Virus record (IMG/VR): IMGVR_UViG_3300025141_000777
Span: 1-23,563 of that record
Origin: a virus
Direction: 5' to 3' (one strand)
DNA: 23,563 nucleotides
The notes beneath the pieces are model-generated. The model did not search any database. It had not been told where the DNA came from and saw nothing but the letters and a program-made list of their open reading frames with translations. A program made the translations under genes and the position numbers. Position 1 is the first letter of the stretch. Each line of letters begins with the position of its first letter. Shown one piece after another: positions 19,305 through 23,356 of this stretch.

Positions 19305-20841
19305 ACGACCACCAAATGCAGTAGTCCCATTTTTTGTTAGCGGCGTTGGTGCGACCAACGCTACCAGCACTAAGGTCAGCTTTGAGAACCGGAAGCTTTA
19401 TCGTACCAGTGTTTTTGGCGACGATCTAATCTCGAACGTGGCGCATACCTGGGGAAGGGATAGGTTTTACGGAAAAATAAATACCTTAGGTGAAGCTGTG
19501 ATCCCCATTGCATCTTTTTTAAAGCCTTTGAAATATACCGCTGAAAGCCAAAGCCACTTCGCTATGAATTTTGTGGCAGATGCGTGGCGTGACTTTGCCG
19601 AAAAACTCAGAGAACTGACCGAGCAGAGAGTTATCTATGCTGACAGCGCCTGGGCATCACCGGTCATTTACGCAGCCTACCGAGATCCTGCTGTCACCTA
19701 CAGCACATATATGAAAGAGCAGGCATTTAGCACTTTCGTTAATACTTTTCTGGCTCGATCAACCGCCGCCCGGAAAAGGGTAAGGAACTTTGATACTTTC
19801 CTCCAAGAGTTGGGACCCTTTTTTGATACAGTTGTGTCCCAGGCTGGATTTCTAACTCAGTCAGGAATGATTGAAAGTGGGTGGACAACCCCTCTCATGT
19901 CCGGGCTCGTAATAGAGATTGCTCAGGAATCTTATGATAATGATTCAGAGAAAACAGCCAAATTTGGGGACTTTAATTTTGGACTGGTCTCCAATTTGGC
20001 AGCGCAATATGGATTTATGATAGACCGTAATATACCTTGGCGCTTGGTGGCAGACTTGTCTAGCCGGGCAATGCAGGAATATATGATCGGAGTCCCTATT
20101 GCCGGGATTGAGGGGGATTTCAAAAATCTTATTGGGGACTGTGGAGAGTTGATGGAACGTGACCCTGGTTATATGCCGGATTTTTATGGTTATTCCCAAA
20201 TTCCTGGGTTTGAGACGGTAAAACGTCACATCGCCGCTTATGTGGGTCCCGGACGAGAACTCATCCCTGGCTATTATATCTATCAGGGAATAAAAAATCT
20301 CTCGGACCAGCAAGCTATAGCCGCTACCGTATTCAGTAATGCCTACAGTCCAAGCTGGACTCAAGATATGGCTCTCCTAACCCCGTATTTACGGAGCATC
20401 TACAACTCTTACGTCGCCACTAACCCCGTGGTTACCGAATATCGCCCCGCCCCCGCCTCCTCCTATCGATCCCCGTCGGGGATTGTGTGCCCTCCTCGCA
20501 CCGTCTCTTACCGCCAATATCCAATTGGCGGTGAAACTATTGGGTCATCTGGCTCTCGATATCACTACCGATGGGCCTATAAATGCTTTTATACGGTGCG
20601 GCTAAAGGAACGTAATTTAGTTTACGATCGAGATGAAGTGTATCGGCATATTAGAGAAGCAACCAATCGATATGACTTCGGAGGAGGGTCTCGTTTCCAG
20701 TGCTATGCTTCGACTATTCAGTATATTCATGAAAATTATGTGGGACCATTTCAAACAAAGTTCTTAAACTTAGAGAAGATATCTGATATTCTAGCAGAAA
20801 GGAATAACAGTGATCTTTCAAACTCTAGACGACAAGACTGA
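19297..20841 (+). CDS. Virion structural protein, probably tail/baseplate, role unknown
   Basis: 514 aa. N-terminal text includes RDRFYGKINTLGEAVIPIAS and MNFVADAWRDFAEKLREL. The middle is helical (FDTVVSQAGFLTQSGMIESG, then GLVSNLAAQYGFMIDRNIPW). A Pro/Ser/Tyr-rich segment (~375-420) holds two strong DNA/RNA hairpins at 20467-20485 and 20508-20534. Proteins with the RDRFYGKINTLGE opening occur near hub genes of environmental T4-like phages and are annotated only as structural. Function is inferred from being in the baseplate run. ATG at 19297 overlaps the hub stop by 8 bases. Its own 3' end overlaps the polymerase-like gene by 32 bases. Confidence 0.6.
   Translation: MVKRPPNAVVPFFVSGVGATNATSTKVSFENRKLYRTSVFGDDLISNVAHTWGRDRFYGKINTLGEAVIPIASFLKPLKYTAESQSHFAMNFVADAWRDFAEKLRELTEQRVIYADSAWASPVIYAAYRDPAVTYSTYMKEQAFSTFVNTFLARSTAARKRVRNFDTFLQELGPFFDTVVSQAGFLTQSGMIESGWTTPLMSGLVIEIAQESYDNDSEKTAKFGDFNFGLVSNLAAQYGFMIDRNIPWRLVADLSSRAMQEYMIGVPIAGIEGDFKNLIGDCGELMERDPGYMPDFYGYSQIPGFETVKRHIAAYVGPGRELIPGYYIYQGIKNLSDQQAIAATVFSNAYSPSWTQDMALLTPYLRSIYNSYVATNPVVTEYRPAPASSYRSPSGIVCPPRTVSYRQYPIGGETIGSSGSRYHYRWAYKCFYTVRLKERNLVYDRDEVYRHIREATNRYDFGGGSRFQCYASTIQYIHENYVGPFQTKFLNLEKISDILAERNNSDLSNSRRQD
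20467..20485 (+). other. Intragenic hairpin 1
   Basis: ATCCCC (20469-20474) pairs with GGGGAT (20478-20483) over a 3-base loop (GTC). It extends by a G-U and a C-G pair to 20467-20485. It lies inside the 514-aa structural gene and is not followed by a T-run. Confidence 0.5.
20508..20534 (+). other. Intragenic hairpin 2
   Basis: ACCGCCAAT (20510-20518) pairs with ATTGGCGGT (20524-20532) around loop ATCCA. It extends through a T-G wobble and a T-A pair to 20508-20534. It lies 22 bases after hairpin 1, in coding sequence, with no T-run, so it is not an intrinsic terminator. Confidence 0.55.
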
Positions 20842-22024
20842 ATGTGTCGGGCTTTACGCTAATCAGCGTCTTCATTTTAGTCCTGGGGATTTCCCTCCTA
20901 ATCTTACAGCGACCTGGAACTACGTTCCTTACTTGGACGCTCAGGATATTGAGTATGCCTCTTTATATTTGGAGGGCAAGCCCGTGGAGGATGTTATCCC
21001 GGAATATCTTAGGGATGACTGGGAGGACGTCAATGGGCGGATCCGCTCTTTCAAACGATCTCTTCGGCTTGCTCAAGTGGATATGAACCAAAATTGTTTT
21101 TTTGATTTGGTCCCCAACCGATTTTTATGTGACTGGTGTGAGGTTAAAAACAGCATCACCGAACATGTTTTAGCTACAGTTCCACGTCCGGAGCGTTATA
21201 CGTTTTATAAAGAAGTCTCCAAAATGATTAGTGAAATAGCTCATCGAGAGGTGAAAATAGATCGCCGTCTTGTTTCGTCTTTTGGGACTAGCCCCAAGTT
21301 TTCCAACCAAGCCGCTCGTATCCTAGCCTCGGCTCCTCGTGTTTGTTACAACCAGTTCGGCACAAAAACTGGACGCCTGACTACTCGCCCTGCGACCTTT
21401 CCTGTCTTAACTCTTCCCAAAGTTTTCCGCCAAGCGATTGCGCCCCAAAATGACTATTTCTTAGAGCTGGATTTCAATGGGGCGGAAGTGCGCACCCTGT
21501 TGGGGGTGCTGGAAAAAGATCAGCCCTCCGACGACATTCACACCTTCCACTTGACGCAGATATTTAAAGACTTGTCTACTCGCAGCCAAGCGAAAGAGGT
21601 CTTCTTTGCGTGGCTTTATGGAGCCAAGAATGTGGCCTCCTCCCATCAACTGTCTCAGTTAGACGCTTACTACCAAAAGGCGTCCGTGCTCAGTCAATGT
21701 TATCACGACGGCGTGGTAACCACACCTTTCAAGAAGAAGATCTGCGACGTTACCCCGCACCATGCTTTAAATTATATTATTCAATCGACAACGGCTGAAT
21801 TGTGTTTGAAACAATTTTTGAAACTTAACTGCCTCCTCTCTCGAACCGCCTTTTCCCGAGTAGCGTTTCTGATTCATGATGCGATCGTAATAGACATGAA
21901 AAAAGAGGACGACCATCTGCTGGATGATTTGTTGTATCTTATGTCGTCAACCACTTTTGGAAACTTTCAGGTAAACGTTAAAAAAGGAACTAACTTAGGG
22001 GAGATGATACCGTGGACAAAGTAA
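20810..22024 (+). CDS. Compact family-A DNA polymerase-like protein
   Basis: 404 aa. Residues ~183-404 carry the Pol I palm/finger signature in order: TKTGRLTT (185-192; Pol I TATGRLSS), motif A DFNGAEVR (221-228; Pol I DYSQIELR, catalytic D221 and steric-gate E226), motif B RSQAKEVFFAWLYG (258-271; R258, K262, F266, Y270 and G271 at canonical spacing), N321/Q325 in NYIIQ, and motif C IHDAIV (H356, D357; the usual Glu of HDE is Ala358). So both metal-binding aspartates remain. The N-terminal ~180 residues match no motif I know; a trace of a thumb or lost exonuclease is possible. T4-like phages normally replicate with family-B gp43, so this is an extra polymerase-like protein. Start GTG at 20810, AAAGGA 6 bases upstream. 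Confidence 0.82.
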   Translation: MIFQTLDDKTECVGLYANQRLHFSPGDFPPNLTATWNYVPYLDAQDIEYASLYLEGKPVEDVIPEYLRDDWEDVNGRIRSFKRSLRLAQVDMNQNCFFDLVPNRFLCDWCEVKNSITEHVLATVPRPERYTFYKEVSKMISEIAHREVKIDRRLVSSFGTSPKFSNQAARILASAPRVCYNQFGTKTGRLTTRPATFPVLTLPKVFRQAIAPQNDYFLELDFNGAEVRTLLGVLEKDQPSDDIHTFHLTQIFKDLSTRSQAKEVFFAWLYGAKNVASSHQLSQLDAYYQKASVLSQCYHDGVVTTPFKKKICDVTPHHALNYIIQSTTAELCLKQFLKLNCLLSRTAFSRVAFLIHDAIVIDMKKEDDHLLDDLLYLMSSTTFGNFQVNVKKGTNLGEMIPWTK

Positions 22025-22872
22025 TAGGATTGGGACGCCTGGGTTGTGCCGTCGCCGACGAACTTAGCGCCCATCCCGAATATCGGATATATAAAATCGC
22101 TCCCGAGATCGATGAGCGGGCCTCCCTATCTTTAGGGTCTTTTTCTTCTATGGACGAGTACGAGAGCCGCATTGACCAAGACGAGATATCTATTTATTTG
22201 CGGAGTATTAAGCCCGAGGATGATGTGCTGTTGATTGTAGAGGGGGGAGATCCCATCGCTGGGGCAACGCTGAAAATCTTAGAATGTATTCAGGATAGTG
22301 CGATTCACCTTCTGTATATTTGCCCGGAACGAGATATGATATCTCAAGTTAACAAAAGGGACGACAAGATTGCTTTCAATATATTTCAGGAATACGCCCG
22401 GAGCGGCGTCTTTGAGAGGCTTTTTTTAGTAAATAAAATAAATGTAGAAAACTTAATGGGAGATGTTTCGGTTCAAGAATATGAAAAAAGTATTGGACAT
22501 TTTATTTCTTATGTGGTAGCCATGATTAATTACTTCAATCATACCCGCCCAAAGATATCTAACAAAATCAAATCTCTTCCGTATTGCCGTATCGCCACCT
22601 ATGGGGTCTCTTCTCTGGATAGTGAAGACGAAGATACCCATTTGCTTTTCCCGTTGGATGAAGTTACAGATATCCATTTTTATTATGGGATCCCGGCCAC
22701 GGACGTCGAGGGCGACGCCACCTTAATGAAAAAAATAAAAAATCATGTTAAACGATATACCTCACCCGGACAATCGGTCAGTTTTTCAGTGTACGAGACC
22801 TCTTTTGACCGGATGATGGTTCTTTGTACAGCCTTTTCTCACAAAATCCAAAGCCTAACAATCGACGTTTAA
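22012..22872 (+). CDS. Rossmann-type nucleotide-binding protein, possibly FtsZ/tubulin-like
   Basis: 286 aa. It opens with a strand and glycine-rich loop, VIGLGRLGCAVADEL (4-18). A strand then leads to a second loop, VEGGDPIAGATLKILECI (76-93), where FtsZ/tubulin carry GGGTGTG. After this come helix AFNIFQEYARSGVFERLFLV (121-140), a strand-loop-helix NKINVENLMG and SIGHFISYVVAMINYF. The helix-strand-N-helix order resembles FtsZ after its signature loop. The signature itself is not conserved, so a tubulin fold is a hypothesis; GxGxxG at 6-11 would equally suit a dinucleotide-binding fold. It overlaps the polymerase-like gene by 13 bases, so the two are co-translated. Start GTG at 22012, AGGGGAG at 21997-22003. 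Confidence 0.5.
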   Translation: MDKVIGLGRLGCAVADELSAHPEYRIYKIAPEIDERASLSLGSFSSMDEYESRIDQDEISIYLRSIKPEDDVLLIVEGGDPIAGATLKILECIQDSAIHLLYICPERDMISQVNKRDDKIAFNIFQEYARSGVFERLFLVNKINVENLMGDVSVQEYEKSIGHFISYVVAMINYFNHTRPKISNKIKSLPYCRIATYGVSSLDSEDEDTHLLFPLDEVTDIHFYYGIPATDVEGDATLMKKIKNHVKRYTSPGQSVSFSVYETSFDRMMVLCTAFSHKIQSLTIDV

Positions 22873-22890: not shown

Positions 22891-22922
22891 CTATATCTTG
22901 GAGAGAGGAGCATAGTAAATGG
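22884..22922 (+). promoter_or_regulatory. Hairpin that could bury the SD and start of the 145-aa gene
   Basis: Bases 22884-22894 (CTATTTACTAT) pair with 22912-22922 (ATAGTAAATGG): 11 pairs with one T-G wobble, loop of 17 bases. The loop holds the SD (AGAGGAG, 22904-22910). The right arm includes the ATG (22919-22921). Only a transcript that begins upstream would have both arms. Confidence 0.5.
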
Positions 22923-23356
22923 GTGATAATCGTCGAGGTTTTTTATTGGCATCTTTTTTGACAACGGAGGATGACGACCTCATCATGGAGGAAGTTGATT
23001 TTGTTGTTAACAACCTTAATTTGACCAACAAACATATTTTTCTTTTTCGTCTTATTGAGGAGCCGACTAAGAAGGTGCTGACCTATAATGCGATCCCAGC
23101 ACCGGGCAAGCATTATAACCCGAGACTTTTTACGATGCGAGTTCACCGAAAAAAGCAAACTAATACGCTTTATACCATCAATGCCCTTAACGCCGCCGTA
23201 GCTTCGCAGCACGACGGTGCCACTGGGAAAAACTTGAGGCTTGACTGGGAGGAGTACAATAACTGCCTTCTTCTTACCGAGGGTAAAAAACTTCAGGTTC
23301 ATCCCGTTGAAGTTGTGAAGATTTTTAAAATAGAAGACCCCCCCGAAGAAAATTAG
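22919..23356 (+). CDS. Unknown 145-aa protein before gp32-like gene
   Basis: 145 aa, mixed alpha/beta. The N-terminus has FLLASFLTTEDDDLIMEEVD, then KHIFLFRLIEEPTKKVLTYN. A central RLFTMRVHRKKQTNTLYTIN and a C-terminal LRLDWEEYNNCLLLTEGKKL follow, then a strand with an acidic tail. I do not recognise a family with known function. There is no signal peptide, membrane segment or metal motif. It has its own candidate late promoter and a hairpin over its translation start, and the gp32-like gene lies 64 bases downstream. That placement may mean a role linked to DNA metabolism or late transcription, but this is only context. Confidence 0.7.
   Translation: MGDNRRGFLLASFLTTEDDDLIMEEVDFVVNNLNLTNKHIFLFRLIEEPTKKVLTYNAIPAPGKHYNPRLFTMRVHRKKQTNTLYTINALNAAVASQHDGATGKNLRLDWEEYNNCLLLTEGKKLQVHPVEVVKIFKIEDPPEEN

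Follow-up and report, generated by a model that had tools for sequence, protein, structure and literature searches.

A minimal family-A DNA polymerase of the divPolA1 type heads the replication module of a T4-like phage lineage

Introduction

In bacteria, a family-C replicase works alongside DNA polymerase I (Pol I), whose 5'-3' nuclease (FEN) domain removes primers and whose polymerase fills the gap. Where Pol I has lost its FEN domain, the loss is complemented by stand-alone FENs (PMC12926913). Among phages, Yutin et al. (2024; PMC11348598) have described divPolA1, a divergent family-A polymerase (PolA) found in 14 phages, including Flavobacterium phage immuto (gp001). The genomes that encode divPolA1 also encode a regular polymerase, of family A, B or C, and replication genes are conserved downstream. 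The thumb of divPolA1 is truncated and its exonuclease inactive, polymerase activity is probably retained, and an involvement in replication has been suggested (PMC11348598). A literature search on the function of divPolA1 returned nothing beyond this paper and its preprint.

Several other polymerases resemble this type in part. For instance, divPolA2 of the barbaviruses is likewise an extra, divergent PolA that lacks an exonuclease and stands beside a regular polymerase; however, its variable neighbourhood and unrelated N-terminal domain set it apart, according to the description in that paper (PMC11348598). APEX/PolA2 of Actinobacteria is also a family-A polymerase with an accessory role, and its proofreading domain is dead, but as described it is cellular and has a reported clamp-binding motif (PMC12926913). 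The short PolA of cyanopodovirus S-SBP1 (421 aa) is similar in length to the protein described below and consists of the polymerase domain alone. On the other hand, its motif C is HDE, it groups with the T7/HTVC041P polymerases, and it adjoins a separate gene for a DnaQ-like exonuclease (MT424636.1, 8273-10014). A split of exonuclease and polymerase as in phage RM378 was considered as a further parallel and set aside: judged by eye, the RM378 ORF labelled 'similar to DNA polymerase I' is a nuclease of the 5'-3' type, and the remaining polymerase ORFs of that phage resemble a family-B exonuclease and polymerase.

Here, a minimal PolA is analysed in a window of 23,563 nt, the whole of the stretch studied (IMG/VR virus record IMGVR_UViG_3300025141_000777), together with its relatives in IMG/VR and in named phage genomes.

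Structure and conservation of the minimal polymerase

The gene (Table 1) encodes a stripped-down relative of bacterial Pol I. Pfam DNA_pol_A matches its 404-aa product at 7.7e-13 (48.6 bits against a cut-off of 34.3 bits), and a profile built from 65 relatives matches Pol I chains of the PDB at ~1e-14. The AlphaFold model (pLDDT 94.2, pTM 0.90) has the palm/fingers fold of Pol I; it matches the Bst and Klenow large fragments with E-values down to 9e-14 and a TMq of ~0.6-0.7, and Pol I large fragments are its top Foldseek matches (Bst, 1xwl, 8.8e-14). Characteristic of family A, the protein has the catalytic aspartates of motifs A and C and the motif B pattern R-x3-K-x3-F-x3-Y-G. An initial annotation, made from the DNA sequence alone, had read a family-A polymerase-like ORF from such signature residues and had proposed a structure prediction as a check; every residue lies where it had been placed, and the predicted fold agrees with the reading.

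Table 1. Features of the polymerase locus, with positions in the window
Feature	Position	Strand	Evidence and remarks
Last structural-side gene, 514 aa	19297..20841	+	Overlaps the polymerase gene; homologue upstream in 62/62 marine and 67/67 immuto loci
Shine-Dalgarno-like GAAAGGA	20797..20803	+	Sequence; 6 nt 5' of the GTG of the polymerase gene
Minimal family-A DNA polymerase (divPolA1 type), 404 aa	20810..22024	+	ORF, Pfam, profile, AlphaFold/Foldseek; GTG start
TGRL, T187-G188-R189-L190 (E. coli R668 region)	21368..21379	+	Alignment; no variation at T or R in the family
Motif A, D221/E226/R228 (E. coli D705/E710/R712)	21470..21493	+	Alignment, census
Motif B/O-helix, R258/K262/F266/Y270-G271 (E. 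coli R754/K758/F762/Y766-G767)	21581..21622	+	Alignment, census
N321/Q325 (E. coli N845/Q849)	21770..21784	+	Alignment, census
Motif C, H356-D357-A358, HDA (E. coli H881-D882-E883)	21875..21883	+	Alignment, census
286-aa protein	22012..22872	+	Overlaps the end of the polymerase gene; downstream in 64/68 marine-type and 0/53 immuto-type loci
145-aa companion with the motif HRKK.TNTLYTINALN	22919..23356	+	Conserved; common to marine-type, immuto, Mel-JY01 and LR756508

Compared with Pol I of E. coli and the Bst large fragment, with which it shares the fold and these residues, the phage type has shorter fingers, HDA or HDS in place of HDE as motif C, and no detectable proofreading domain; its FEN is a separate gene, which in relatives of the window lies in the same operon. 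As the initial annotation had noted for 3'-5' exonucleases, the Pfam scan detected no such family in the 404-aa protein (PF01612 is absent), nor a 5'-3' exonuclease fused at its N-terminus, and a profile search found PF01612 absent from the genomes of the marine-type branch, to which the window belongs. A vestigial exonuclease in the N-terminus was considered and dropped: profile comparison with exo+ PolAs aligned the polymerase part only. In a model of the immuto protein, the strand order resembles that of an exonuclease, as judged by eye. The gene is under strong purifying selection, with dN/dS mostly 0.06-0.15 among unsaturated pairs of close relatives. The T4 late-promoter motif TATAAATA was rejected as a signal, as it gave 23 matches with one mismatch allowed against 20.7 by chance.

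Similar proteins had seemed, in the initial annotation, to recur in environmental T4-like phages, and they do recur widely: searches of IMG/VR returned 356 loci with a seed profile and 312 with the immuto protein, two possibly overlapping sets that extend the 14 published phages by several hundred further loci. The best 80 of each set were kept, and full-length sequences were dereplicated at 90% into 71 lineages, 44 of the marine type and 27 of the immuto type. The initial annotation had held that variation at D221 or D357 would count against a polymerase; Asp is present at the former in 156/156 full-length homologues and at the latter in all 155 that have a residue at that position. Together with R189, R228, K262, Y270 and Q325, these two are invariant in all 71 dereplicated lineages. 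D221, E226, R228, R258, K262, Y270, Q325, H356 and D357 are each kept in 44/44 marine-type lineages. The immuto branch differs at the equivalents of E. coli E710, R754 and H881, with E226 replaced by His, R258 by Ala, Thr or Val, and H356 by Tyr in 27/27 lineages; the first of these positions is also His in Microcystis phage Mel-JY01. Motif C had been read correctly as HDA rather than HDE, but this is not peculiar to the window protein: the Asp of motif C is followed by Ser, Ala, Asn or Cys, and Glu occurs in none of the 71 lineages. The residue pattern and the selection on the gene fit a protein that would be a working polymerase.

The window protein and divPolA1 are homologous in the polymerase domain and in part of the N-terminus, and the gene order is the same. 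In both, the exonuclease is lost and the palm aspartates are kept; a regular PolA, B or C co-occurs with divPolA1 and is present in the relatives of the window. The N-terminus of the window protein is shorter, the whole protein having 404 aa against 441 aa in immuto. In a tree, the branch of the window and the immuto branch form one clade with a support of 99/99. Long branches are present in this tree, whose outgroup comprised six rows (E. coli, T7, HTVC041P, DirtyDunning, S-SBP1 and immuto gp199), so it is moderate evidence for this grouping. The statement that such proteins had no assigned function was correct, though the family had already been named (PMC11348598).

The family also occurs in Mel-JY01 and in LR756508, a phage of 484 kb, both of them absent from the 14 genomes in the figure legend of Yutin et al. 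(PMC11348598). The minimal PolA of Mel-JY01 (408 aa, WWT39333.1, record positions 50397-51623) was identified from its position, and both a profile match (2.9e-33) and tblastn confirmed it; this real PolA-like gene of the cluster is annotated as hypothetical. Elsewhere in that record (PP395634.1, 55792-56832), a gene annotated 'DNA polymerase I' has 5'-3' exonuclease domains and no polymerase domain in Pfam, and is a misnamed FEN. LR756508 has the same module with a minimal PolA of 452 aa.

Gene neighbourhood

The minimal PolA is the first gene of a replication/recombination module directly after the structural genes. The window (23.5 kb) ends 5' of its own gene for the single-stranded DNA-binding protein (SSB), and the composition of the module is read from relatives, in which the order is minimal PolA, a small conserved protein, a gp32-type SSB, RecA/UvsX, a Pol I-type 5'-3' exonuclease (FEN) and DnaB; it is the same in Mel-JY01 and LR756508. 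Downstream and on the same strand, SSB is found in 35/35 marine-type and 34/34 immuto-type loci, RecA in 34/34 and 32/32, FEN in 29/29 and 26/26 (55/55 together) and DnaB in 22/23 and 25/25, counted over loci with enough sequence and with near-identical loci included, so that these are not independent events. Because the constant partners lie downstream, the gene opens the replication module. The initial annotation had placed it at the end of the structural operon; it does adjoin the end of the structural genes, but its fixed company of SSB, RecA, FEN and DnaB lies on the other side, and this company also speaks against the role in packaging-end repair that had been offered.

The 286-aa protein that follows the polymerase has no Pfam match; by eye alone, its N-terminus appears FtsZ/tubulin-like. 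In one large relative (G001), a TubZ-type tubulin homologue (L199:9974-11110; Pfam 1.8e-9) is encoded separately from the gene adjoining the polymerase. The same genome has, at 95.6-100 kb (L203:15569-18068 and onward), adjoining DUF444 and SpoVR homologues and then a 647-aa ORF that is PrkA-kinase-like by eye, the arrangement of a bacterial stress operon in a phage.

Each of 13 large divPolA1 genomes searched (13/13) has exactly one FEN, of the Pol I type (101-127 bits, vs 55 for that of T4), and for the FEN of G001, the N-terminal domain of E. coli Pol I gives an alignment (27%, 1e-21). In the relatives, this FEN is a separate gene a few genes from the exonuclease-less polymerase.

Replicases of the relatives

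The initial annotation assumed the family-B replicase of T4-like phages and proposed a search for gp43 elsewhere in the genome. That premise fails for this lineage, because six near genome-size relatives (G001-G006, 162-204 kb) lack PolB and each carry a DnaE-type (family C) polymerase frame of ~1140-1160 aa, with the minimal PolA as their sole family-A gene. An overlooked gp43 was ruled out, as the T4 positive control was found at 3e-17. More widely, the window's relatives differ from the gp43 replisome of T4 in that PolB was found in 0/14 and a T4-style gp45 clamp in 0/11, T4 being positive in both searches, though a gene missing from a profile search of a contig labelled linear may still be present in the virus. 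The domains of the G001 DnaE are PHP, alpha, finger and HHH; a further relative, G009, and 5/12 shorter contigs carry DnaE too. Immuto-type genomes have instead a second PolA (780 aa, exo+), with no DnaE found; PolB is present in Mel-JY01, along with an annotated clamp loader, and LR756508 has PolB and DnaE-like matches. These data indicate that the lineage of the window phage does not use gp43, and that its own replicase would probably be DnaE-type like that of its relatives. The view that the minimal PolA needs a job other than replicase is supported as probable, with repair or gap synthesis a likely one: the protein apparently lacks proofreading, and its relatives keep a separate replicase.

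Discussion

The constant pairing of the minimal PolA with a separate 5'-3' nuclease suggests that the phage carries a split bacterial repair/Okazaki-fragment polymerase. We give about an even chance to the two proteins acting jointly in primer removal and gap filling behind a separate replicase. A separate replicase (DnaE-type in the closest large relatives of the window) would synthesise at the fork, RNA primers or 5' flaps would be taken off by the FEN, and the gaps left behind, probably along with recombination/repair gaps, would be filled by the minimal polymerase before ligation. Among the matches listed for a scan of 46 conserved proteins of G001 there is no DNA ligase family, and sealing would therefore depend on a host or unrecognised ligase. 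A job apart from fork synthesis, as proposed, would let the gene stay in place although the branches use replicases of different families (C, A or B). Against this split-Pol I reading, the linkage to FEN suits recombination-coupled synthesis equally, because RecA and SSB are just as constant. Moreover, in an ordinary Pol I the immuto replacements at E226, R258 and H356 should impair function, though both aspartates and the lysine stay.

A broader form of the proposal is offered tentatively. It holds that the exonuclease-less polymerase and FEN may form a replicase-independent Okazaki/gap unit in T4-like phages, kept across replicase swaps among families A, B and C, and that in the immuto branch the polymerase half may have a rebuilt nucleotide site (E710H, R754A/T/V and H881Y equivalents) and a different substrate preference.

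The strongest rival is a dedicated recombination/repair or lesion-bypass polymerase, which would extend D-loops made by RecA/UvsX or fill damaged gaps independently of primer removal. Low fidelity would be compatible with the absence of a proofreading domain and of the motif C Glu, and repair has been raised for divPolA2, another divergent PolA (PMC11348598). RecA and SSB match FEN in constancy, but repair alone leaves the one-to-one pairing with a Pol I-type FEN and DnaB unexplained, and we consider it rather unlikely; in practice it overlaps with the split Pol I, and the two readings may describe one activity in different settings.

It is less likely still that the minimal PolA is the main fork polymerase, with the 'regular' DnaE, PolA or PolB of each genome doing another job. 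It is the minimal PolA that is grouped with SSB, RecA, FEN and the helicase, while the gene neighbourhood of the regular polymerases is less informative (Yutin et al., PMC11348598). However, the minimal PolA has compact fingers and no proofreading domain, a full-size replicase of some family is present in every genome-size relative searched, and immuto members are substituted at three substrate-binding positions.

A catalytically dead replisome scaffold that retains the fold could be read from the substituted nucleotide-binding positions of the immuto branch and the absence of the motif C Glu throughout, but it is quite improbable, given that both metal-binding aspartates and the equivalents of R668, K758, Y766 and Q849 are invariant in 71 lineages, a pattern that would be expected of retained catalysis. 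Least probable is a primer- or RNA-synthesising enzyme, for although PolA-fold RNA polymerases exist (T7, N4) and His in place of the sugar-selecting Glu in 27/27 immuto lineages and Mel-JY01 might permit ribonucleotides, the branch of the window keeps this Glu in 44/44 lineages, its protein model matches DNA polymerases, and most of these genomes (four marine-type and five immuto-type, the latter being all of that type) have matches to DnaG-type zinc ribbons, though mostly weak ones.

Since the family was published in 2024, what is new here is confined to its breadth with the two further hosts, the invariant FEN linkage, the residue census with its branch differences, and the functional proposal. 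In marine and freshwater phages, a minimal PolA is found at several hundred loci, and the identity of the replicase varies around it. The protein itself is predicted to be a small natural polymerase without proofreading, of use for biochemistry. If the split-Pol I reading is true, phages, like bacteria, separate fork synthesis from primer and gap processing, which would help to explain how replicases can be exchanged while the other genes of the module stay as they are.
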